35,028 bases of DNA from a virus, in IMG/VR virus record IMGVR_UViG_3300031963_000499, positions 1 through 35,028 of that record; one strand, written 5' to 3'. A program made the translations under genes and the position numbers. Positions 2,060 to 28,864 of the stretch are shown here, in pieces; within the stretch, counting starts at the first letter, position 1; every line of letters starts with the position of its first letter. The notes beneath the pieces are model-generated. The model had not been told where the DNA came from, searched no databases, and was given only the letters and a program-made list of their open reading frames with translations.

Positions 2060-2632
2060 TCAGCTTGCGTAGCCAAACATGACAAGGGTGTGGGCCGGCT
2101 TGCGGCGGTTGATCACGCACTCCAGCTGCGTGTTGCCAAACACGCGCAGCGGTGCGTCGCTGGCGCCTTCGCAGGTGGCCTCAGTAATGGAGGTGGCCTG
2201 CGCCAGGTTCATGCGCCACACACCGATCCACTCAAAGCCCAGCACGGGCGAGTCGCACGGGTGCGCGCACGTGGTCGGGCCGAACTCTTCGATGGTGGCG
2301 CCCGCGTAGCCGATGGTGGCGGCCAGGGCGATCATGAAGCCGCGGCTCAGATCGCCACGGCCGGCGATGCGCTGGCGCAGCGCGGTGCGGCGCTGCTCCA
2401 GCGTCTGCGACACGCCGCCGCTGCAACTGTCGGGCAGCGCGTAGTTGCGCTCCCAGTCCTCCAGCCCCACCACCGCGCGGTCAGGCTGCTGCTCGCGCAG
2501 CACCGTCTGCGCACCGCTTTCCGCTGAGGTCAGCACGGCCGCGATGGCACCGGCCTCGCGACGCACACCCAGCCCGCGCACGTCGTAAGCGACGGGCGGC
2601 AGCAGCGCGGGAATGGCGTCGACGATGTCCAC
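2060..2632 (-). CDS. Baseplate/tail protein, Mu gp48 (YmfQ/DUF2313) family
   Basis: This 190-aa protein matches the DUF2313 (YmfQ) family in length and layout: an N-terminal helical region with LEDWERNYALP, a conserved EQRRTALRQRI helix, and a beta-rich C-terminus ending HTLVMFGY. In Mu, gp48 follows gp47 and takes part in joining baseplate and fibre. The same order holds here. The start is a GTG, 16 bp after the gp47 stop codon. No better ATG lies upstream in frame before that stop. Confidence 0.85.
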   Translation of the reverse strand: MDIVDAIPALLPPVAYDVRGLGVRREAGAIAAVLTSAESGAQTVLREQQPDRAVVGLEDWERNYALPDSCSGGVSQTLEQRRTALRQRIAGRGDLSRGFMIALAATIGYAGATIEEFGPTTCAHPCDSPVLGFEWIGVWRMNLAQATSITEATCEGASDAPLRVFGNTQLECVINRRKPAHTLVMFGYAS

Positions 2633-2648
2633 GATGTCGGCTCAGGTG

Positions 2649-3719
2649 TCAGGTCAGAGTGATGGCGCCGAGGGTGATCAGCTCCAGCGCCGTGGGGCTG
2701 ACCGAGCATGCAACGTTCGCGGCGGGTGCAGTGAGCGTGACGTCGGTCACGCCCGGTGCGGAAAGCAGGGCGCGGATCAGGCGGTTGCGCACCAACTGGT
2801 CGCCGGGGCCCAGCGCGGCGAACTCTGCGGTGATGGCCGCCGTCACCGTGGCGTTCACGCTGGCCAGCGTGGTGCCGGCAGTCAGCGTCAGGGCGGCCGT
2901 CACCGGCTGCACCACGGCCGTGGGCGCCAGCGCCTGCACGCCCGTGCCCGGCAGCATGCCCACCGGCCGGCGCTGGTCCAGCACCGCCTGCACCGATGCC
3001 AACAGGGGCGCGCCTGGCAGGCCGGTGGAAGGCATGGGCACCACGTCCACCGTGCCCGTGCCGCGCCGGGCCGGGAACACGAAGGCGCGGGCCACGCCGG
3101 GCACCGTCAGCGCCCAGCGCTGGTAGTCCGCAGCGTTGCCGCCCTGCGCGGGCTCACGCAGCTCCAGCAGCAGCCGCTGCAGCAGCGCCGAGTCGGCCTC
3201 CACGTCAGAACCGCCCGTCATCGTCAGCACCGTGGCCGCCACCGTCAGGCCGGCCGGTGGCGTGTTGAGGGTGACAGGCGTGTTGGCGCTGAGGTTGCCT
3301 GCGGCGCCCGCCACGCTGGCCACGCAGGTGAGATCCACGGTGCCGCCTGCGCCCACCACGCCGGCCGCCGTGGTCTGGTACTGCGCGCCCTGCGCAGTGA
3401 CGAACGTCTGCCCGCTGGCCACGGCCGTGCCCACCACGCCGCTGATGCGCACCGTGCCGCCGGCGGCCGCCGCAGGCCGGCGGGTCACGCCGCGCAGGTT
3501 GGCCATGCGCTCCATGCTGTCCACGTCGGCCAGGTCAGGGAAGCCCTGCCGGAACACCCACGCCTGGTGACTCAGCAGGCTTTCGCCGATGGCCGCCACC
3601 GCGCAGGCGCGCACAAAGTGGTCGCTGTCCGGGCCGGTGGCCGCGGCCGGGTTCTGGTTGCGCACGGCCTGCAGATAGGCATCGCGCAACTGGGCGAATG
3701 AAGGCACTTCGTAGGGCAT
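2649..3719 (-). CDS. Baseplate protein J-like (Mu gp47)
   Basis: A 356-aa baseplate wedge protein of the P2 J / Mu gp47 / T4 gp6 family. Residues 1-90 hold the VPSFAQLRDAYL start and the ADVDSMERMANLRGV region typical of the family. A beta-sandwich section (100-200) follows, then the GGNAADYQRWALTVPGVARAFV segment around 220-245 that marks the Baseplate_J domain. It builds the baseplate ring with the gp46 homologue. The start chosen is the ATG giving MPYEVPSF, because upstream codons in the same frame lack family features. Confidence 0.9.
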   Translation of the reverse strand: MPYEVPSFAQLRDAYLQAVRNQNPAAATGPDSDHFVRACAVAAIGESLLSHQAWVFRQGFPDLADVDSMERMANLRGVTRRPAAAAGGTVRISGVVGTAVASGQTFVTAQGAQYQTTAAGVVGAGGTVDLTCVASVAGAAGNLSANTPVTLNTPPAGLTVAATVLTMTGGSDVEADSALLQRLLLELREPAQGGNAADYQRWALTVPGVARAFVFPARRGTGTVDVVPMPSTGLPGAPLLASVQAVLDQRRPVGMLPGTGVQALAPTAVVQPVTAALTLTAGTTLASVNATVTAAITAEFAALGPGDQLVRNRLIRALLSAPGVTDVTLTAPAANVACSVSPTALELITLGAITLT

Positions 3720-4739: not shown

Positions 4740-5890
4740 GGCGCCCCCCGCGTCAGGTCGATCACGCCGCCCGGCACACTGTTCTTGCCGCGGCGGTGGC
4801 GGCGCGTGCTGGGGTGTGCCTGCGGCACCCAGGCGCCGTCTTCCTTCAGCGTCAGTTGCGTCACCTGGCCCACGCCCTCGCCGCCCATGAAAGTGCGGCC
4901 CAGCAGGAAGAAGGTGCCGGAGATCTGGTGCGGGTCGCTCACCAGCTCCACGCGCTGGCCAGGCGTCCACAGTTGCCCCGCGCCAGGCTGCCCGGCCGGC
5001 ACGCGGTGCCCTTGCACCAGCGCCTGCAGCGTGTAGCCCTGCACCCGCCCATCGCTGATGGCCTTGATGGCGCGTGCCCGCGCGATGTTCACGCTGGTGG
5101 CCTCGTGGTCCACCAGCACGCGCGGCCGGTACACCGGCACACCCGTGTCCTGCACCTGCGCCTGGATGCCGGCGCGGGCGTTGCGCTCGGCCGCACCGCT
5201 GCCGCTGGCCGCCGCCTGGCCCAGCACCGTCACATGGCTGTAGCGCGGCACCAGGCTGCGCGTCTCCGCCAGGCGCAGCAGGTTGTTCTGCGCGGCCGGC
5301 GTGCCGGTGCGCATCTGCAGCAGGCACACCGCCGGCACGTCATAGCGCGGCCCGCCCACCACCAGCGTGCCGTCCGGCTCGAACCAGGCCCACAGCCCAT
5401 TGGCCTCCGCCGCGCGGCGCAGGGCGTCCCAGGCGCTGTCGCCGGGCTCGGTGCTCACCTTCTCGCGCGGCAGCGTGGTGTCGGCCTCGATGCGGATGCT
5501 GGTGATGCCCAGCGGCCGCACGATGCGCGCAATCACCTCGTCCAGGTTCAGGTTCAGGCCACTGGTGATGGGCGCGCTGCAGTCCAGCAGCACCGCGGCC
5601 TGGTCACGCCCGCTCAGGTGCAGGCGCATGGCGCCCTCGCTCACGTCTACCGTGCGCTCGTCCAGCACGCCGGTCAGGGCCACGTCGCCGCCCAGCGTCA
5701 CGCGCACCGCAGCGCCAGGCGTCACCTCGGCGGGCACGCTCAGGCCGCTGGTGGACAGCGAGACAGACCACGCGTCGGCCGGCGTCATCAGGTTGCTGTC
5801 GATCTCGTAGCGCGTCCAGCGGCTCTGCACCTGGCCGCGGATGGAGATCTCCACCGCATCACGCTGCGGCGCGCCCTGCGGCTCAGCCAC
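4736..5890 (-). CDS. Baseplate hub protein, Mu gp44 (P) family
   Basis: The 384-aa protein lies between gp43 and gp45 homologues and matches the Mu gpP hub family. Its N-terminus has VEISIRGQVQSRWTRYEIDSN, an LSVPAEVTPGAAVRVTLGG beta segment and LTGVLDERTVDVS. The C-terminus has GQLWTPGQRVELVSDP and a VTQLTLKEDGAW motif. It is expected to form the trimeric hub above the spike, like T4 gp27. I use the GTG at 5890, which overlaps the previous stop by 8 nt. An ATG seven codons earlier is possible but would add an Arg/Trp-rich leader. Confidence 0.85.
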   Translation of the reverse strand: MAEPQGAPQRDAVEISIRGQVQSRWTRYEIDSNLMTPADAWSVSLSTSGLSVPAEVTPGAAVRVTLGGDVALTGVLDERTVDVSEGAMRLHLSGRDQAAVLLDCSAPITSGLNLNLDEVIARIVRPLGITSIRIEADTTLPREKVSTEPGDSAWDALRRAAEANGLWAWFEPDGTLVVGGPRYDVPAVCLLQMRTGTPAAQNNLLRLAETRSLVPRYSHVTVLGQAAASGSGAAERNARAGIQAQVQDTGVPVYRPRVLVDHEATSVNIARARAIKAISDGRVQGYTLQALVQGHRVPAGQPGAGQLWTPGQRVELVSDPHQISGTFFLLGRTFMGGEGVGQVTQLTLKEDGAWVPQAHPSTRRHRRGKNSVPGGVIDLTRGAP

Positions 5891-14652: not shown

Positions 14653-15846
14653 TCAGGCTCCTTCCTGGATGCGGGCCACGGCCTCGGCCGCGGTGATGGT
14701 GATGCCCCGGGTGGCTTCATCGGCCACCAGGGCGGCAGCCTTGTGTCCCAGCGCGACGGGGTCGATCTCGCGGGTGCCGCCGTTGCGGGCGTGCTCGCCA
14801 AAGCTCACGGTGGCCGGCATGGCCAGCAGTTGCGTGCGCAGCACGCTGGCCAGCGGCTGGGCGGCATCGCCTTCCCCGAAGCTCACCACGCTGTCACCAG
14901 CGGGCGTCTCCAGGTGCACCAGGGTGGCCACCAGCACATCGCGTGCGCCGGCGGGCCAGCGGGCTTCGCCGATCAGCTTGTCGGCAAAGCTGGCGCACTC
15001 CGCCTGGCGCGCCTGCGCCTGGCGCTGCGCCTCGGCGCCGCGCAGCGCCTGCAGCTCGGCCTCGGCCCTGTCGGCGCGGGCTTTTTCGGCCGCCAAAGCG
15101 GCCTGGGTTTCAGCACTCACGGATGATGTCCTTTCAGCGTGGTTGGAACGGGATTCGATCGGGGTGTGAAGTTCCTCAGACACGTCTGGGGCCCGATCTG
15201 CAAACGATGCGCCCTGCATGCCAGGCCGGCGCTCCTCGGCCTCTTCCTGGCTGGCCGCGGCAGCCGTGTCGCTCAGGCCGTCCAGTTCCCACTGGGGCAG
15301 CACGGCGTCGGCCTTCTCCAGGCCGTCACGCTCCACCAGCCAATCGCGCAGGCGGCGCAGCAGCCGGGTGACCGAACTGCCGAAGTAGCCGGACAGTTCG
15401 CCGAAGCTCACCGCATCCAGCTCCACGGTGGCCAGCTCTTGGCCTTCGGCAAAGCTGACGGCCGGCAGGCCTTTGATGGCGGGCGGGTTGGCGCCCAGGA
15501 AACCGATGTGGGCCAGGTGCCACTTGCCCGGTGTGGGGTTGTTGCGGCTTGCCGGCGGATAGAACTGCGCGGAGACTTTGCTGAACAGGCGCTGCTTGAC
15601 CCAGCCCACCAGCTCGGGCTGGGGGTCCACGTCGGCCACCAGGTGGCCATCGGCGAACGACAGGCCGCGCACCCAGCCGTAGGCCGGCGCGGTCAGCTTG
15701 GGGTGGCCGATGACCAGCGGCGCCTCATGCGTGCGCGGGCTGTAGGTCTGCGCCACCTCGGCCAACAGGGCCGGGGTGAACTCCAGGTCGACGCCCTCAA
15801 CGCTGACAGCGCGGGCACCGGCCTTGGCAATGTGGATGGATGGCAT
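14653..15846 (-). CDS. Prohead protease/scaffold protein (Mu gp32, I)
   Basis: The protein of about 397 aa has the Mu I two-part layout. The N-terminal protease domain (about 1-170) contains the THEAPLVIGHPK motif with its histidine, AYGWVRGLSFADG, and WHLAHIGFLGANPPAIKGLP. The C-terminal scaffold half is helical, with an Ala/Glu/Arg coiled coil (250-290) and an Ala-rich tail. In Mu the 3' part is also made separately as scaffold Z; whether that occurs here cannot be seen. Seven SF-[AG]-[DE] tetrapeptides are scattered through it. I choose the ATG at 15846 (MPSIHIAK); an ATG three codons earlier is also possible. Confidence 0.88.
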   Translation of the reverse strand: MPSIHIAKAGARAVSVEGVDLEFTPALLAEVAQTYSPRTHEAPLVIGHPKLTAPAYGWVRGLSFADGHLVADVDPQPELVGWVKQRLFSKVSAQFYPPASRNNPTPGKWHLAHIGFLGANPPAIKGLPAVSFAEGQELATVELDAVSFGELSGYFGSSVTRLLRRLRDWLVERDGLEKADAVLPQWELDGLSDTAAAASQEEAEERRPGMQGASFADRAPDVSEELHTPIESRSNHAERTSSVSAETQAALAAEKARADRAEAELQALRGAEAQRQAQARQAECASFADKLIGEARWPAGARDVLVATLVHLETPAGDSVVSFGEGDAAQPLASVLRTQLLAMPATVSFGEHARNGGTREIDPVALGHKAAALVADEATRGITITAAEAVARIQEGA

Positions 15847-15884
15847 GCCTCGCATCGTCGCGAGGCGGGGGTGCTCAAGGCATG

Positions 15885-15898
15885 GTGACGTGCGTCAC
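15885..15898. promoter_or_regulatory. 14-bp palindrome upstream of the protease gene
   Basis: GTGAC-gtgc-GTCAC, 38 nt before the chosen protease start. It differs at one spacer base from the element at 23970-23983 ahead of the amidase gene. Both are followed on the minus strand by N-ATGC-N9-CCCC. The shared sequence and spacing suggest a regulator-binding site for late genes. Confidence 0.5.
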
Positions 15899-15954
15899 TG
15901 CCTGGGCGTCACTGCCTGGGCGTCACTGCCCGGGCGTCACTGCCCGGGCGTCAC
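15894..15954. repeat. 14-bp tandem repeat array between the G and protease genes
   Basis: GTCAC recurs at 15894, 15908, 15922, 15936 and 15950, always 14 bp apart. The units read GTCACTGCCTGGGC twice and then GTCACTGCCCGGGC twice. The first GTCAC is also the right half of the palindrome at 15885-15898, so the array looks like an expansion from that site. It fills most of the 104-bp gap and reaches the G stop codon. Confidence 0.85.
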
Positions 15955-23045: not shown

Positions 23046-23252
23046 TCAGCGAGCTTTCTTGAGGGCGCGCCGGTGGCGTGCCTGGTTTCGGCGCTTGCGC
23101 GCCATGCGTTGCACGTGCCGGTTGCTCAGGCCGCGGCTGCGAGCTTGCGCCGTGGGCGCCACGGTTCCGCCCGTCACGCCTGGGGTCGGCGTCCATGCAC
23201 ACGCGGCCGTGGCCAGCGCTGCGGCCAGCACGGAAGCCAAGGCGCCCCTCAT
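23046..23252 (-). CDS. Small exported or lipoprotein-like basic protein
   Basis: A 68-aa protein whose ATG overlaps the amidase stop by ATGA. The N-terminus is a signal peptide (RGALASVLAAALATAAC) with a cysteine that could be a lipobox, though the -3 residue (Thr) is not ideal. The C-terminal half is strongly basic (RMARKRRNQARHRRALKK). Its position between amidase and holin suggests a lysis role, for example an outer-membrane spanin partner, but this is inference. Confidence 0.6.
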   Translation of the reverse strand: MRGALASVLAAALATAACAWTPTPGVTGGTVAPTAQARSRGLSNRHVQRMARKRRNQARHRRALKKAR

Positions 23253-23932
23253 GCCGCACCGCCTTCCAGCACGTTCACCGCCAGCGGCTGCATGCCGGCC
23301 TGCAGCCAAGCGGCCACGTCGAAGCCTGGGCAGGTTTTCAGCCACTCCTGGCGGGTGACCTGGCCGTCGCCGTTGGTGTCAGGTGACAGGTCACGGTGGC
23401 CGCACACGCGCACCTGGCTGCGCGCCAGGGCATCCAGCTCGCCCTTCAGGCGGGCCACCAGCGTCCGCAGCGCACGCCACTGCGCCAGGGTGTAGCGCGC
23501 CACGGGCTCTGCGCCGCCCACCATGCAAATGCCCACCGAACGGGCGTTGAAGCCCGCCACGTGCGCGCCGGGCTCGGGCAGGCCACGGCCGGTGGCAATG
23601 CGGCCGTCCAGGTCAATGACGTAGTGGTAGCCGATGTGCGCCAGGTTCGGGTTCAGCCGGGCGGCCGCGCGTGGCAGGCGCGCAAACCCGCGCGCCTTGT
23701 GCCAGCCGTCGATGGCGGTTTCCGCCTCAGGGGCCAGCCGGACACCGCTGCGCGTGGCGCTGCAGTGGATGACGATCAGGTCTATCGGCCGCATGGCGCT
23801 GCGCTCGGCCAGCGTGCGCGGCAGCGAAGCCCTCACGGCCGCATGGGCAGCCTCGACGGCCTGCAACTCCAGGCCGGGATAGTCCGCAGGCGCAGGGGCT
23901 GCGCGGAGGTTGGGGAGCGGGGTCGATTGCAT
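23249..23932 (-). CDS. N-acetylmuramoyl-L-alanine amidase (endolysin)
   Basis: The protein is 227 aa from the first ATG. The catalytic domain is Amidase_2 (T7 lysozyme/PGRP-like): LIVIHCSATR (H56), IGYHYVIDLDGR, CGHRDLSPD (H179) and CPGFD (C201). H56, H179 and C201 are the expected zinc ligands. An EF-hand-like DTNGDGQVTRQE loop lies at 185-196. It cleaves the amide bond between N-acetylmuramic acid and L-alanine of the peptide stem. The first 46 residues lack family features, so the ATG at 23794 (MRPIDLIVIH) is a real alternative. The first start is kept because of the upstream palindrome. Confidence 0.9.
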   Translation of the reverse strand: MQSTPLPNLRAAPAPADYPGLELQAVEAAHAAVRASLPRTLAERSAMRPIDLIVIHCSATRSGVRLAPEAETAIDGWHKARGFARLPRAAARLNPNLAHIGYHYVIDLDGRIATGRGLPEPGAHVAGFNARSVGICMVGGAEPVARYTLAQWRALRTLVARLKGELDALARSQVRVCGHRDLSPDTNGDGQVTRQEWLKTCPGFDVAAWLQAGMQPLAVNVLEGGAA

Positions 23933-23951
23933 CCGGGCAGGATGCCCGGAT
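23931..23951. terminator. Perfect 9-bp hairpin between regulatory cassette and lysis genes
   Basis: ATCCGGGCA and TGCCCGGAT pair perfectly around GGA. The hairpin overlaps the first base pair of the amidase ATG and lies 45 bp beyond the stop of the zinc-ribbon gene. There is no U-tract. It could end transcription from the regulatory cassette, or hide the amidase start in RNA coming from that side. Confidence 0.55.
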
Positions 23952-23969
23952 GGGGAGAGCTATCGCATC

Positions 23970-23983
23970 GTGACGTGTGTCAC
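23970..23983. promoter_or_regulatory. 14-bp palindrome upstream of lysis genes
   Basis: GTGAC-gtgt-GTCAC lies 37 nt before the amidase start, in the only gap between the lysogenic cassette and the late block. The element at 15885-15898 is its near copy. A late activator or repressor could bind here. Confidence 0.5.
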
Positions 23984-23995
23984 GGCATGCGCTGG

Positions 23996-24472
23996 CTACG
24001 CGGGTTCAGCAGGCGCAGCCTCGGCTTCCATCTGTAGCGCCGCCCGAACTGGAATGAACAGGTAGTCATCGGTGGATTGCCACACCCCATTCTCGACGTC
24101 CGCATAGAAGGTATCCGCGCGTGCCGAAGTGGTCAAAAGCACAGCCGCTGCGAGGCCACCAATCGCCCCGTACCACCAAGGCGACCCCATCAAGGCAGCC
24201 AAGCTCGGGCCAACGATCAGGCAGGCAGCCATGAACTTGGCCGACAGCGGCGCCGTGGCTGCGGTTGTTCCTGAAATCGTCGTCTTGGTGTACGTGTAGG
24301 TGAACGGTACCGCAACCTGCATTGTCGGGGATGCCCTGACGAAGCTCTCGACCAACGGATGGCGCCATGAATTCGGATGTCCGCAGCTTGGGCAAGCGTC
24401 TGCCAGCTTGGACAGCGAACGGTCGCATGCAGCGCACGTAATCAGATCTGTTGTCACCGTGCCACCTCCCAT
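23996..24472 (-). CDS. Zinc-ribbon membrane protein of the lysogenic cassette
   Basis: A 158-aa protein with an N-terminal zinc ribbon (CAAC at 13-16, CPSC at 27-30), a linker with FTYTYTKTTISGTT, then two membrane segments (about 78-96 and 97-115) and a cytosolic or periplasmic acidic tail. Its start overlaps the preceding stop by one base (TGATG). Base composition is lower in GC than the late genes. It is not a known Mu gene. Because it is transcribed with the regulator, it should be made in the lysogen; superinfection exclusion or another conversion function is possible. No family is recognised. Confidence 0.7.
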   Translation of the reverse strand: MGGGTVTTDLITCAACDRSLSKLADACPSCGHPNSWRHPLVESFVRASPTMQVAVPFTYTYTKTTISGTTAATAPLSAKFMAACLIVGPSLAALMGSPWWYGAIGGLAAAVLLTTSARADTFYADVENGVWQSTDDYLFIPVRAALQMEAEAAPAEPA

Positions 24473-24720
24473 CAAGGCGCGTCGACCCTACAGCTGGGGC
24501 CTAGCTGAAAGACACGCTCTGGCGGCGCGTTGAAGGATGAACATGGCTGCTTGCCGGGCTCCTGAACTGGAAGGAAGAGGCCGGCGCACGCGATCGCTGC
24601 GACGAACGCAATGAGCCCAACGGTCCACCGGTCCGGCCCCTGCATCAGGATCACGTCGCCAATGACGTTTGCTACTTGGATGCCCGAACCGTGGTTCTGC
24701 TGTTTGCTTGTACTGATCAC
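24472..24720 (-). CDS. One-TM protein with N-terminal Gly-rich tag
   Basis: An 82-aa protein read from GTG, with a strong AGGAGG 8 nt upstream and a 4-nt overlap with the regulator stop. Residues 11-23 (GSGIQVANVIGDV) resemble the tail of the regulator next door. One membrane segment follows (WTVGLIAFVAAIACAGLFLPV, split 32-52). The last 30 residues hold two cysteines (60 and 77) that could form a disulfide outside the membrane. Orientation and function are unknown; a sensor or partner of the regulator is one possibility. Confidence 0.65.
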   Translation of the reverse strand: MISTSKQQNHGSGIQVANVIGDVILMQGPDRWTVGLIAFVAAIACAGLFLPVQEPGKQPCSSFNAPPERVFQLGPSCRVDAP

Positions 24721-25091
24721 CGTGAAATCCTCCTGTGTTTTATGTCGCCTCCGGTGTTGGCGATTTGGTAAGAGCCGGATCCTTTCATTTTCTGCACTGC
24801 GGACATCACAGGTTCACGCGTGGCGGCCACCTCGGCGGGCGCGCCTTGCCCACCTCGCAGCAGCAAGTCTAGGTTGACGTCAAAGCCGACACCCAGCTTG
24901 TGCAGGTAGACGGCATCCAGCAGGCGCTTCCCTGTCTCTAGCCGGTACTGCTGGGCCAGGCTCACGCCTAGCTGCTTGGCCATGTCGATGGCATTGACAC
25001 CAATCTCCTCCCGCACGGCTTTCAGCCGGCCACCGATGAGGCGGCTCAGCTCCTTATCCGTATCGCTTTCAACTCTGGCCTTGCGCGGCAT
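24717..25091 (-). CDS. XRE-family regulator (candidate lysogeny repressor) with C-terminal Gly-rich tag
   Basis: A 124-aa protein with a helix-turn-helix domain at about 21-79: RLKAVREEIGVNAIDMAKQ, then LGVSLAQQYRLETGKR. It is divergent from the early operon, the usual place of a c-type repressor. After a linker, residues 106-117 read GSYQIANTGGDI, a motif that recurs in the following gene. There is no peptidase-type domain, so induction by RecA-driven self-cleavage is not expected. The ribosome-binding site is strong (GAGGGGG). Whether it is the immunity repressor or a cro-like partner is not clear. Confidence 0.78.
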   Translation of the reverse strand: MPRKARVESDTDKELSRLIGGRLKAVREEIGVNAIDMAKQLGVSLAQQYRLETGKRLLDAVYLHKLGVGFDVNLDLLLRGGQGAPAEVAATREPVMSAVQKMKGSGSYQIANTGGDIKHRRISR

Positions 25092-25118
25092 GTAACCCCC
25101 TCAAGTTAGTCGGGTATT

Positions 25119-25150
25119 TTCGCTATTTGACGCATTCGCTATTTGGCGAA
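25119..25150. promoter_or_regulatory. Tandem 16-bp operator-like repeats in the divergent control region
   Basis: TTCGCTATTTGACGCA and TTCGCTATTTGGCGAA follow one another without a gap. The second is also an inverted repeat (TTCGC...GCGAA). They lie between the two divergent regulators, in AT-richer DNA where both promoters must be. They are the best candidate operators for the XRE and Ner-like proteins. Confidence 0.65.
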
Positions 25151-25190
25151 AACAATCCCACATCGTCACCGTGTGTCCCTGATGCTACCT

Positions 25191-25469
25191 ATGCCAAGGC
25201 CAAGAATCAAAGCACCAGATATCAAAACACCAGATGCAGTCCGAGCAGAGCTGCAGGAGGCGGGGCTGTCCTTGGCCGAGTGGGCGAGGGCCCACAACGT
25301 GTCCTATGAGGTCACCAAGGCCGTGCTCGCGGGCCGGCTCAAGGGCAAGCGCGGAGAGGCCCATCGGATTGCCATTGGCCTGGGCTTGAAGGTTGGCAAG
25401 GTCATTGCTCCGCAAGCCTACGGCGCACCCCCTCCGAAGCCTCATCGTTCACTGAGGGTGGTGCCGTGA
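25191..25469 (+). CDS. Ner-like DNA-binding protein
   Basis: A protein of about 92 aa, first gene of the early operon. The DNA-binding part is VRAELQEAGLSLAEWARA followed by NVSYEVTKAVLAGRLKGK, which resembles the Ner/Nlp type (LAEWA.....Y..V...L.G). Mu Ner represses the repressor and early promoters in the lytic phase. ATG at 25191 is chosen; ATG at 25182 is also possible, and neither has a clear Shine-Dalgarno sequence, so a leaderless start is possible. The gene ends inside the start of the next one. Confidence 0.72.
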   Translation: MPRPRIKAPDIKTPDAVRAELQEAGLSLAEWARAHNVSYEVTKAVLAGRLKGKRGEAHRIAIGLGLKVGKVIAPQAYGAPPPKPHRSLRVVP

Positions 25470-26305
25470 TGAAGCCGCAGAGTTTCCAACAAGACAGCGA
25501 CGATGACGCGGGGGTGCCGCAGCGCTTGCGGGCGGTCATCGCGGATAGCGGGATGTCCCAGGCCAAGTTCGCTGCGCACGTCGGCATCGATCTGGACCGC
25601 CTGAAGGGCGTTCTGAGGGGGAAGACACGCCGCCCCCCCCTAGATCTGCTACAGAAGGTGATCAAGCGGTGCAACGTCGATTCGACGTGGCTGTTCACCG
25701 GCATGAAGCTCGACGTGGGCGAGACGACGCCACTTGAAAAGGCGCTGATTGCCGACTTCCGTTTGCTCAAGCCCGCCGAGCAGTACGCGATTAGACGTGC
25801 AGCGGCGGCGAGGGGCGACGAACCCAAGCTGAAGACGCTTCTTGATGAACTAGCCGCCCGCCGTGCGGAGGCGCTTGATCCCAGCCCGCCGCCCGACCAG
25901 GCACCAGCGTGCGCTGCGAGGAAGCCCCATTTCAAGCTCCGCTTGTCCGGCCAGATCGACCTGGTGTCGCCGGGCACCGAGGCGGTGTCGCGTTTTGAGA
26001 CACAAGCATTCTCCACCGAGCAGCTAGCTCAAGCCAAAAAACGCATCACAGACACCGGCCAAACGTTGGCCGACTGGGCTCGCAAACGAGACCTTGACTA
26101 CAACACCGTTTCCCTCGCGCTGCAAGGGCGGTTGAAGGGCCTGCGCGGTGAAGGGTATCGCGTTTGCGTCGCCCTCGGCCTTCGGGAGGTGTCAAGCAAG
26201 CACAGGCGGCAGTGGGCGGCAGTCCCTAGCCACGAAGAAGCGGCCCTGGTTCATCTCCACGACAGGGGGAACTTGGAACGCCGCGCGGGAAAGGTCCAAC
26301 CATGA
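25469..26305 (+). CDS. Two-domain regulator: XRE helix-turn-helix plus C-terminal Ner-like domain
   Basis: A 278-aa protein. Residues about 17-83 form a Cro/CI-type helix-turn-helix (RLRAVIADSGMSQAKFAAHV). A linker of about 100 residues follows. Residues about 183-240 (LAQAKKRITDTGQTLADWAR, then YNTVSLALQGRLKG) repeat the domain of the preceding gene. A run of eight C at 25633-25640 lies in the first DNA-binding domain. The ATG shares a base with the Ner stop. It may be the true lysogeny repressor or an early regulator; no family was recognised for the full length. Confidence 0.7.
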   Translation: MKPQSFQQDSDDDAGVPQRLRAVIADSGMSQAKFAAHVGIDLDRLKGVLRGKTRRPPLDLLQKVIKRCNVDSTWLFTGMKLDVGETTPLEKALIADFRLLKPAEQYAIRRAAAARGDEPKLKTLLDELAARRAEALDPSPPPDQAPACAARKPHFKLRLSGQIDLVSPGTEAVSRFETQAFSTEQLAQAKKRITDTGQTLADWARKRDLDYNTVSLALQGRLKGLRGEGYRVCVALGLREVSSKHRRQWAAVPSHEEAALVHLHDRGNLERRAGKVQP

Positions 26306-26535
26306 GCAGCCTCACCACCCAGTTGGACCCCGCCGCACAACGCCGCGCTTTGCAGCGCGAGGTGCTCACGCGCCATCGCCTGGAGTTGGCCGCCGCGGTA
26401 TCTGAAGCAGCTCGGCAAGTTGCCGAAGCGCTGCAGCCACTTCGGGCTCTTCCGGCCACTGGCCAGCCTCATTCATCAACAGTGCGGCCAGTTGCGGACG
26501 CAAAGGCCCCAGCGGACCCGGGAATCGATCAATGA
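26302..26535 (+). CDS. Small early ORF overlapping an antisense gene
   Basis: A 77-aa frame whose ATG overlaps the regulator stop by ATGA. Codons 1-32 have the G/C-ending bias of the phage genes and a helical sequence (AAQRRALQREVLTRHRLELA). After about 26396 the bias disappears, and the DNA looks coding on the other strand. It may be a short real protein with an overlapping tail or a truncated remnant. No family is recognised. Confidence 0.35.
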   Translation: MSSLTTQLDPAAQRRALQREVLTRHRLELAAAVSEAARQVAEALQPLRALPATGQPHSSTVRPVADAKAPADPGIDQ

Positions 26536-26671
26536 ATCGCACCGTCTCGTGCAACGCTGTCTGCAGGGCCACGATCTGCCCCGCCAGATGCGCGTGCGAA
26601 AGCTCCAGGGCGGCGCTCTGGTGCTTCGCAAGCAGATCCAGCAGTTGCGCCAGTTCGTCGTCAGTGAGCAT
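26366..26671 (-). CDS. Antisense hypothetical protein between regulator and transposase genes
   Basis: A 101-aa frame on the minus strand inside the otherwise plus-strand early operon. It has mixed composition with amphipathic helices (DDELAQLLDLLAKHQSAALE, then LPRQ-free LRPQLAALLMNEAG) and good third-position G/C down to about 26396. This suggests it is translated rather than a shadow. The ribosome-binding site is weak. It faces the small plus-strand ORF and could interfere with read-through into the transposase gene. No family is recognised. Confidence 0.45.
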   Translation of the reverse strand: MLTDDELAQLLDLLAKHQSAALELSHAHLAGQIVALQTALHETVRFIDRFPGPLGPLRPQLAALLMNEAGQWPEEPEVAAALRQLAELLQIPRRPTPGDGA

Positions 26672-26713
26672 GGGCGCGATCGTATCCGGTGGCCGCCCTG
26701 CGGAGGCCCAGCC

Positions 26714-28864
26714 ATGAGCGCCTGGGCCACCGCCACAGACCTGGCCGGCCTGCCCGGCCTGCCGGCCAGCGCATTTCGCATCCGTGAAGTGCTCACCCGC
26801 CTGTCGGTGCCCTCACGCCGCCGGGCGGGCCGGGGCGGCGGTGTGGAGTTTGCCGTCGCCGCGCTGCCCGAACACACGCGCCTGGCCTTTGTGCAGCGCT
26901 GCGGCGCTGATGCGCAGGTGTCTGCCAACGATGCCCGCCTGGCCAGCGTGCCCCCGCAGGCCAGCGCCCGCGCTGAAGAAGCCCGCCAGGCCGCGCTGGT
27001 GACCGGCTGGAGGAAGGACCGTCAGGACGAAGTGGCCCGGGTGCTGGTGGCCTTCCAACGCTTCTGGGCGGGCTTTGGTGGGCCGGTGACGCCGGCCCTG
27101 CACGCCTTCTGCAGCCTGTGGGCTGCCGGCAAGGTTCCGGCCGATGAGGCGCTGCGCACGGCCTACCCGCGCCTGAGCTTTTCAACCCTGCGCGGCTGGT
27201 ACGTGGCGGTGGAGCGCGGCGGGCTGGCGGAGATCACCCCACCCAAGCACTGGCGCAAAGGCCAGTTCTCGGCCCTGGCCGGTGAGGTGGGCCACGCGGT
27301 GCTGGCGCTGCTGATTGACAAGCCGCACCTCTCGGCCCAGGCCATTTACCGGGTGCTGCAGGCGCAGTTCGCCGGCCTGCCGAGTGACCGCGCTTTCCGG
27401 CGCGGCCTGGCCGCCTGGAAGACGCACAACGCCCAGTTGCTGGCCGGGCTGACCAACCCGGACGCCTGGCGCAGCCGCTACATGAGCGCGGCCGGCAGCG
27501 CCAGCGCCGCCGTCACCAAGCCGAACCAGTTGTGGGAGATGGACTCCACCCCGGGCGACGTGATGCTGGCCGATGGCAAGCGGCACGCCGTCATCGCGGT
27601 GATTGACGTGTACACGCGGCGCCGCATGTTCTTGGTGGCCCGCACGTCGAAAAGCGGCGCCATCATGGCCCTGATCCGCCGCGCCATTGCGGCCTGGGGC
27701 GTGCCCGAGGCCATCAAGACGGACAACGGCCAGGACTACACCGCGCGCCAGTTGGACCAGGCGCTGGTGGGCCTGGGCATCGAGCACCCGCTTTGCACGC
27801 CGTTCTCACCCCATCAAAAGCCCCATGTGGAGCGCTGCATCGGCGCCCTGATGCGCGAGCACTTTGAGTTGTTGGACGGCTTCATCGGCCACAACGTGGC
27901 GCAGCGCCAGGACATCGAGGCGCGCCGCAGCTTTGCCGAGCGGCTGTTTGACGCGGACGGCAGCACAGAGCTGCGCCTGAGCCCTGAGCAGTTGCAGGAC
28001 ACGCTGGACGCCTACTGCACCCGCCGCGAGGCCCAGCCCGAAGAGGCGCTGGGCGGCATGACGCCGCTGCAGGCTGCGGCCGGGTTCAGCTCCGCCACCG
28101 TGAGCGAGCGCGCCCTGGACATCCTGCTGGCACCTGCAGCCGATGGCGGCACCCGGGTGGTGGGGAAGAAAGGCTTGCGCATCGGCCGCGGTGACTACAA
28201 CCACGCCGCCCTGGGCGGCCTGGAGGGCAGCACCGTGCAGGTGAAGGTGGATGACGCCAACCTGGGCCGCTGCTGGGTGTTTGACCTGGACGGCATCTAT
28301 CTGTGTGAGGCCATCGACCACGCCCGCCTGGGCATCAGCGCGGCCGAGGTGGCCGCTGAGCGCAAGGCTGAGCAGGCCAGGAAGATGCGCGAGGCCAAGC
28401 GCCGGATCAAGGCCGAGACGCGCGAATACGACACCCGCGCCGCGGTGCAGGCCATCACCCACCGCCGTGTGCAGCAGGCGGTGGAGGCATCGCCCAACGT
28501 GGTGGCCCTGCGGCCGCAGCGCGAGCACACCAGCACGGCGATCGAATCCATTGACGCCGCAGGGGTTGACCTGGTCACCGCCGCGCAGGTGGCCAGCAGC
28601 CAGCAGGTGGTGGCCGCGCGCCTGGCCGCCGTGCCCGCACCCGCCGTGGCGCCGGCCCAGGTGCTGCGCCTGGATGACACGCCGCAGCTGCGCTACGCGC
28701 GCTGGGTGCGGCTGGAGCAACGCGTGCAGCGCGGGCAAGCGCTGACGCCTGCTGAGGGCACCTGGTTCCAGGGCTACCCCGCCGGGGCGGAGCACCGGTC
28801 CATGCGCGACTACTTTGAAAGGTTCGGCCTCGACGCCGAGACGGTGCTGGCCGGCGCAGGCTGA
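26714..28864 (+). CDS. DDE transposase A (MuA/BcepMu TnpA-like)
   Basis: A 716-aa transposase. The N-terminus (FRIREVLTRLSVPSRRRAGR) is the MuA-type DNA-binding region with HTH-like segments. The rve core carries LWEMDSTPGD (D277), KTDNGQDYTA (D337) and KPHVERCIG (E373), giving a D-60-D-35-E spacing. A Mu C-terminal beta-barrel follows (LRIGRGDYNHAALGGLEGSTVQV near 490), then a basic helix (AERKAEQARKMREAKRRI). It joins phage ends to target DNA. GGAGG is 8 nt before the ATG. In-frame codons upstream of this ATG are noncoding in character. Confidence 0.92.
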   Translation: MSAWATATDLAGLPGLPASAFRIREVLTRLSVPSRRRAGRGGGVEFAVAALPEHTRLAFVQRCGADAQVSANDARLASVPPQASARAEEARQAALVTGWRKDRQDEVARVLVAFQRFWAGFGGPVTPALHAFCSLWAAGKVPADEALRTAYPRLSFSTLRGWYVAVERGGLAEITPPKHWRKGQFSALAGEVGHAVLALLIDKPHLSAQAIYRVLQAQFAGLPSDRAFRRGLAAWKTHNAQLLAGLTNPDAWRSRYMSAAGSASAAVTKPNQLWEMDSTPGDVMLADGKRHAVIAVIDVYTRRRMFLVARTSKSGAIMALIRRAIAAWGVPEAIKTDNGQDYTARQLDQALVGLGIEHPLCTPFSPHQKPHVERCIGALMREHFELLDGFIGHNVAQRQDIEARRSFAERLFDADGSTELRLSPEQLQDTLDAYCTRREAQPEEALGGMTPLQAAAGFSSATVSERALDILLAPAADGGTRVVGKKGLRIGRGDYNHAALGGLEGSTVQVKVDDANLGRCWVFDLDGIYLCEAIDHARLGISAAEVAAERKAEQARKMREAKRRIKAETREYDTRAAVQAITHRRVQQAVEASPNVVALRPQREHTSTAIESIDAAGVDLVTAAQVASSQQVVAARLAAVPAPAVAPAQVLRLDDTPQLRYARWVRLEQRVQRGQALTPAEGTWFQGYPAGAEHRSMRDYFERFGLDAETVLAGAG

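Follow-up and report, generated by a model that had tools for sequence, protein, structure and literature searches.

Are the small membrane proteins encoded directly behind the repressor of a temperate phage its partners or its passengers? This question is raised by a three-gene cassette (XRE, ORF2, and ORF3) on the minus strand of a 35-kb virus record, the whole of which (35,028 nucleotides) is called the window here. The cassette lies at positions 23996–25091, flanked by the early operon and the lysis genes, and the open reading frames confirm the place that a first-pass annotation of this DNA had given it. That annotation had considered a superinfection-exclusion, defense, or membrane-signal module whose regulator responds to its partner proteins, an interpretation that, as a whole, is partly supported by the present analysis. 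It missed a short motif that is matched between the C-terminal tail of XRE and the N-terminal head of ORF2, and it is this motif that lends support, at the level of sequence, to a regulator that responds to a partner. We favor, with a probability of roughly 0.45, a reading in which XRE would be the immunity repressor and ORF2 its cognate inner-membrane partner and envelope reporter, the two coassembling through their shared motifs.

Layout of the immunity region

The window phage is a KS10/BcepMu-type transposable phage of Burkholderiales. Its plus strand carries genes for a Mu-type DDE transposase (26702–28864; Pfam rve, 9e-15, and Mu-transpos_C, 4e-12; phrog_310, 7e-99), a TniB/MuB-like ATPase, and Gam, and its minus strand carries an amidase gene and further genes. 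As in immunity modules of the KS10/BcepMu type, the Mu-type transposase gene is in the early operon; the first early gene, an HTH gene of the BcepMu gp16 family (25143–25469, plus strand; phrog_925, E = 1.6e-20), diverges from the repressor gene; and the repressor gene, the accessory genes, and then the lysis genes, of which the amidase (endolysin) gene is the first (23249–23932, minus strand; Amidase_2, 8e-17), share one strand. KS10, the comparator for this layout (BcepMu was outside the phage collection compared), has the order gp9 endolysin, gp10 holin, gp11, gp12, and gp13 repressor, with gp14 (gp16 family) and the gp16 transposase on the opposite strand (PMC2628397). It is thus like the window in having a repressor, two unannotated genes, a holin, and an endolysin, with the gp16-family gene and the transposase gene diverging from them, and unlike it in that gp11 is lipoprotein-like and a zinc-ribbon protein is absent. 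Mu, in which the first-pass annotation had sought counterparts of the membrane genes, was the wrong choice of comparator.

The second early regulator (25466–26305, plus strand) combines an HTH_3 domain with a C-terminal phrog_925 domain (Pfam and PHROGs). The adjacent regulators at 25143–26305 therefore both carry a phrog_925 domain, fused behind HTH_3 in the second, suggesting duplication and fusion. Elsewhere, in L175, L178, L179, and L190, HTH genes of the phrog_925 type (GISVAEWARHNGFNPTLVYQVLR type) adjoin apparent restriction-modification or other defense genes, not a phage repressor.

A copy of the cassette that is 99.9% identical is found in one other IMG/VR contig and in one contig of a Rubrivivax MAG, and more distant prophages, with transposases 57–60% identical, are found in Polaromonas, Variovorax, and other Burkholderiaceae. 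The G/C counts given earlier (29 of 60 at 24661–24720 and 48 of 60 at 5401–5460) are exact, and low GC extends beyond the membrane genes to the whole immunity region, about 24000–26400. A search of 23200–26800 returned no terminator-like site on the minus strand, and so none within the cassette, an absence that is consistent with a single cassette transcript and supports the earlier proposal that both membrane genes would be cotranscribed with the repressor gene.

XRE as a candidate immunity repressor

XRE (24717–25091, minus strand) is an HTH protein of 124 aa. Its Pfam matches to HTH_31 (E = 5e-5) and HTH_3 (E = 1e-3) both narrowly miss the curated cut-offs, it matches phrog_8 (2.7e-7) and the transcriptional repressor family phrog_2328 (4.5e-6), and its top NCBIfam match is phage repressor RstR (1.5e-6, below the cut-off). 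Tandem operator-like repeats of the form TTCGCTATTTG(A/G)CG(C/A)A lie at 25119–25150, without further exact copies in the window; the second repeat is a palindrome, TTCGC-N6-GCGAA. The repeats overlap a putative early promoter, TTGACG-18-AACAAT (25127–25156, plus strand), which is σ70-like by consensus match only; the early operon has no other promoter-like site. Because XRE diverges from the gp16-family gene, as KS10 gp13 does, because the repeats lie over this promoter, and because the layout is that of KS10, we infer that XRE is the immunity repressor.

The same features bear on whether XRE could instead be the antitoxin of a toxin–antitoxin-like pair, with a membrane protein as the toxin. 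The small overlapping genes, a weak similarity of XRE to the antitoxin model couple_hipB (E = 0.006), and the overlap of an XRE gene with a PBECR2 nuclease gene in phage L065 would all fit such a pair, which is nevertheless made very improbable by the immunity-repressor position of XRE, by the operator-like repeats over the early promoter, and by RstR being the best NCBIfam match, albeit below the cut-off.

A motif shared by XRE and ORF2

ORF2 (24472–24720, minus strand) would encode 82 aa, comprising an N-terminal motif, one TM segment, and a short tail with two Cys residues. Its only hydrophobic segment spans residues 31–51, approximately (maximum KD19 of 2.51). The overlap with XRE is 4 nt (GTGA) and the Shine–Dalgarno sequence is AGGAGGA; together with GC3 and the motif, these features suggest that ORF2 is a gene. 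It has no family in Pfam, PHROGs (E ≤ 0.1), NCBIfam, or PADLOC and no usable match in phages or plasmids. The idea that ORF2 would travel with XRE genes elsewhere is not supported, as no relative was found outside the window phage beyond the motif.

Residues 104–117 of XRE (GSGSYQIANTGGDI; 24741–24782, minus strand) match residues 11–25 of ORF2 (GSGIQVANVIGDVIL; 24646–24690, minus strand). The alignment of the XRE tail with the ORF2 head, GSG-IQVANVIGDV, spans only about 14 residues, with an SW score of 38 and a shuffle p of about 0.001 for the terminal segments and about 0.009 at full length. The motif is short, rich in Gly, Asn, and Asp, and probably of the β type. Since similar short motifs sit in β-helix repeats, a β-solenoid-like structure is plausible. 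In a single-sequence AF2 model of ORF2, the motif is helical rather than a strand, with low confidence there (pLDDT about 55). The cassette proteins gave no match to known fungal or animal amyloid motifs in the Pfam library, which is expected to cover the fungal ones.

In bacterial amyloid signaling sequences (BASS), known from NLR/Bell pairs, a short motif is matched between the C terminus of one protein and the N terminus of a neighboring gene's product, and the effector has a TM helix (PMC7889193). The XRE/ORF2 motif likewise sits at the termini of adjacent-gene products, one of which bears a TM helix; unlike in BASS, the sensor side in the window is a phage repressor. Because NLR receptor and Bell effector domains are absent from XRE, ORF2, and ORF3 (Pfam and NCBIfam), and amyloid formation is hypothetical, we keep the cassette outside the BASS class.

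Recurrence of matched pairs in other phages

We searched for the same C-to-N pairing among relatives of the transposase, in a census of phrog_925 loci (280 Burkholderiales genomes, 26 of them positive, with 28 regions read), and in phages matching the repressor of L083, a Burkholderiales prophage. The pairing recurs in independent phages, each with its own motif: KS10, KS5/Carl1/AP3, Ps59, and prophage L166. The tail of KS10 gp13 matches the head of gp12 with a p of 0.001; the corresponding values are 0.003 for KS5 gp11/gp12 (QNFEGASIGQQVTGDV / MNQKFDG-EIGQVAGGDV), 0.002 for Carl1, 0.026 for AP3, and 0.002 for Ps59_17/18, and the L166 repressor and partner (GDFHGQLVEGNVNN / GDFNGQLANGNINN) score 68 (p < 0.001). 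TM segments are present in the partners of KS5, Carl1, AP3, Ps59, and L166. KS10 is unlike the window here, in that gp12 has no TM segment and has a partner domain common to other loci.

The P2-like phages KS5 (gp11–gp12), Carl1 (Carl1_39–38), and AP3 (AP3_39–38) resemble the window in that the motif of the repressor tail matches the head of a one-TM protein encoded by the next gene, and in that this partner, a moron product of the "membrane protein" family phrog_6521, has a periplasmic Cys-containing end, as ORF2 does. That family takes in the partners of KS5, L083, and L166, which have in common a periplasmic-type end with two Cys residues; KS5 gp12 has been named merely "membrane protein" (PMC3091744). 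The P2-like pairs differ from the window in the size of the partner (about 250 aa), in its ORF6C-like region, in the motif (FxGxVGQVAGGDV), and in phage class, and the phrog_6521 profile does not match ORF2, whose homology to these partners is undetectable beyond the motif. In the Pseudomonas phage Ps59, the repressor tail also matches the N terminus of a TM partner, here with two TMs and a different motif type.

A directional comparison of repressor tails with next-gene heads was made at 30 loci, one representative per cluster. Matched pairs reached p ≤ 0.005 at 5/30 loci, compared with 9/870 mismatched pairs (Fisher 5e-5), in a test for which the motif had first been noticed in the window, the C-to-N direction was picked afterwards, and the loci were sampled nonrandomly. 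Several of the top mismatched pairs join loci of one motif type (Komp repressor/KS5 partner and L176/L164). A smaller, earlier control, covering all pairs and both termini, gave a weaker enrichment (5/59 versus 4/150). At 25 of the 30 loci the repressor/next-gene match was not significant. The L163 repressor and partner were likewise set aside as not significant, as was the L083 repressor tail with its next gene, which look alike by eye at a p of about 0.05–0.10; the significant match in L083 is solely the one between its two membrane proteins (p < 0.0005). In L164 (reverse complement, 2070–3159), L181, L184, and L186, the repressor is followed by a protein with GDGN/GNGN-type motifs, and the next gene of L164 encodes a zinc-ribbon/TM protein whose N-terminal motif, RIDGNDNIQVGRVEGDLTI, is related.

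Scanning viral contigs with a DNA pattern for NVAGGDI returned mostly unrelated proteins. For VAGRDIN, 260 genomes gave 7 matches compared with 0 for the backward control; the 2 that could be read as full ORFs were a filamentous-haemagglutinin-like β-helix repeat and the L083 zinc-ribbon gene. As the short motif also occurs in a β-helix repeat protein, it is not diagnostic by itself.

Natural (Rosetta-stone) fusions are customary evidence of functional association, and one such fusion is found in L167 (1522–2364), where a single protein of 280 aa joins a repressor HTH, the motif, and a partner domain. Its residues 19–97 match KS10 gp13, residues 97–272 the L181 partner, and residues 140–203 KS10 gp12. 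XRE aligns with the N-terminal part of this fusion (residues 20–117, p < 0.004), and phrog_17822 matches gp13 (HTH) of KS10 and also gp12. Repressor–membrane motif pairs were undescribed in the literature searched, which took in few subscription papers.

ORF3 and the variable site behind the repressor gene

ORF3 (23996–24475, minus strand) has 159 aa when read from TTG 24475. A start at GTG 24457 is probably the correct one, with a better Shine–Dalgarno sequence (GGGAGGTGG) and a 14-nt gap to ORF2. The 4-nt overlap of ORF2 and ORF3 requires the TTG start and vanishes with GTG 24457; of the 1–4-nt overlaps reported earlier, that of XRE and ORF2 therefore holds and the second is probably lost. 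The protein had been described as having a zinc ribbon and two TMs. The ribbon is present (C14, C17, C28, and C31; Zn_ribbon_3, E = 0.003, below the cut-off) and a TM hairpin is predicted (77–95/101–117), with a second TM that is weak by hydropathy. An AF2 model (mean pLDDT of 70) comprises the zinc ribbon, a strand pair, the TM hairpin, another strand pair, and a C-terminal helix, and a Foldseek search with it gave no match at E ≤ 0.001 in BFVD or PDB. ORF3 has no usable match in Pfam, PHROGs, NCBIfam, PADLOC, phages, or plasmids. A scan for the pattern CPxCGxPNxWxHP yielded three further members, in the Mu-like phages L063, L064, and L065, which when aligned with ORF3 share CxxC...CPxCGxPNxWxHP, the TM hairpin, and a C-terminal F-x8-W-x-S...PV; a bacterial contig holds a truncated, frameshifted relative. 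The family thus appears to be a rare one of Mu-like phages, and its presence in three others argues that ORF3 is a real gene.

In L065 the ORF3 relative follows XRE–PBECR2 and precedes the holin and amidase genes; L064 has it between Mor and the amidase, and L063 in the early operon before gemA, both without XRE. ORF3 therefore does not need the regulator, and the idea that the membrane genes always accompany an XRE gene is not supported. These positions also bear on the idea that ORF3, and perhaps ORF2, would belong functionally to the lysis or late program, for instance by modulating a holin, and would merely abut the repressor gene. Consistent with this idea, the relatives in L064 and L065 are all on the lysis strand and next to amidase or holin genes, but the L063 relative is an early-operon gene, and the lysis genes own a conserved control element downstream of ORF3; we regard a lysis role as improbable. 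The element, a GTGAC-N4-GTCAC dyad and then a hairpin (23930–23983, minus strand), comes directly after ORF3, and the 3′ arm of the hairpin carries or abuts the amidase ATG. One copy lies upstream of the lysis gene in each of L005, L006, L007, L010, L011, L012, L015, and L019, and a second copy in the window lies around 15830–15900 (minus strand). It is possibly a late-promoter-like element, a late-activator site with the start codon beside the stem. Several tandem GGGCAGTGACGCCC-like repeats (about 15885–15950, minus strand) lie directly upstream of the second copy.

The site downstream of the repressor gene is hypervariable in relatives, holding genes for secreted proteins, lipoproteins, or nucleases, or no genes. 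It encodes a 2-TM protein in L005, secreted proteins in L006 and L007, a DUF6731 protein and a TM protein in L010, and a zinc-ribbon/TM protein and a 61-aa motif protein in L011. The order in L083 is repressor, zinc-ribbon/TM protein, motif-TM protein, small protein, TIR protein, holin, and lysozyme. The analysis supports a moron-like island at this site. In the same repressor-to-lysis slot, the TIR protein of L083 (5451–6302) is CAP12-PCTIR_TIR, the PADLOC candidate PDC-S35 (2e-115), and in L065 (9382–10208) the XRE gene overlaps the PBECR2-family nuclease gene by 4 nt.

Such variability, the 25 of 30 loci without a repressor/next-gene match, and the occurrence of ORF3 without XRE would be expected if the membrane genes were unrelated morons riding on a shared transcript and the repressor tail were no more than a self-association tag. 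Enrichment of matched motif pairs within loci and the existence of repressor–partner fusions speak against such a passenger island, which we consider unlikely.

A possible link between repressor and membrane

In the reading that we favor, of a repressor with a membrane partner, a single transcript in the lysogen would yield both XRE and ORF2. The C-terminal tail of the repressor and the cytosolic N terminus of ORF2 would carry one motif and could coassemble, and through coassembly the membrane could tether or nucleate repressor molecules. ORF2 would most likely inform the repressor of a state of the envelope, thereby tuning lysogeny or induction, and ORF3, with its zinc ribbon and TM hairpin, would be an accessory protein from this moron island. 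Because it is the repressor that bears the tag, we favor a membrane sensor by which repressor would be titrated, tethered, or released.

The main rival to this membrane sensor is a Rex-like exclusion system, in which the tagged DNA-binding protein would sense infection and, by way of the common motif, turn on the membrane protein or proteins, which would damage or depolarize the membrane and so abort infection. In P. putida, the RexAB genes lie downstream of a repressor gene, and their membrane effector is switched on by their DNA-binding protein in abortive infection (PMC12894663). The lambda cI-rexA-rexB and P. putida RexAB arrangements parallel the window in that DNA-binding and membrane proteins are encoded downstream of the repressor and cotranscribed with it (PMC12894663), a motif-joined sensor and membrane effector would follow the logic of a bacterial amyloid signalosome (PMC7889193), and the L083 island holds the TIR defense candidate PDC-S35. 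However, the tag sits on the repressor itself and not on a RexA-like extra gene: only XRE, ORF2, and ORF3 lie between the early and lysis genes, with no separate RexA-like DNA-binding protein, whereas RexA and the repressor are distinct proteins. Nor does the cassette encode a polytopic channel such as RexB, its membrane proteins having one TM (ORF2) and a TM hairpin (ORF3). Neither ORF2 nor ORF3 has a PADLOC match, the two systems are not homologous, and a matched motif is absent from the description of RexAB in PMC12894663. We therefore find exclusion of this kind doubtful, and the effect of the repressor–ORF2 pairing may be induction control or Rex-like exclusion.

More broadly, unrelated temperate phages (Mu-like and P2-like) could have repeatedly evolved an amyloid- or β-type relay from repressor to membrane, a viral counterpart of NLR/Bell systems, although we hold this generalization to be speculative and rather unlikely. 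The repressor-tail motif would be locus-specific, homotypic, and common to the co-encoded membrane protein, and the DNA-bound repressor and the membrane sensor or effector would exchange state by templated assembly. Candidate pairs occur in the isolated, named phages KS5, KS10, Ps59, and Carl1, in which the gene after the repressor bears no annotation beyond hypothetical or membrane protein, and comparison of repressor tails with next-gene N termini offers a screen for further pairs. If such a relay exists, a sequence-specific tag would connect prophage repressors to the membrane, beyond their role as DNA-bound switches, and lysogeny decisions or exclusion would gain an envelope input or output.
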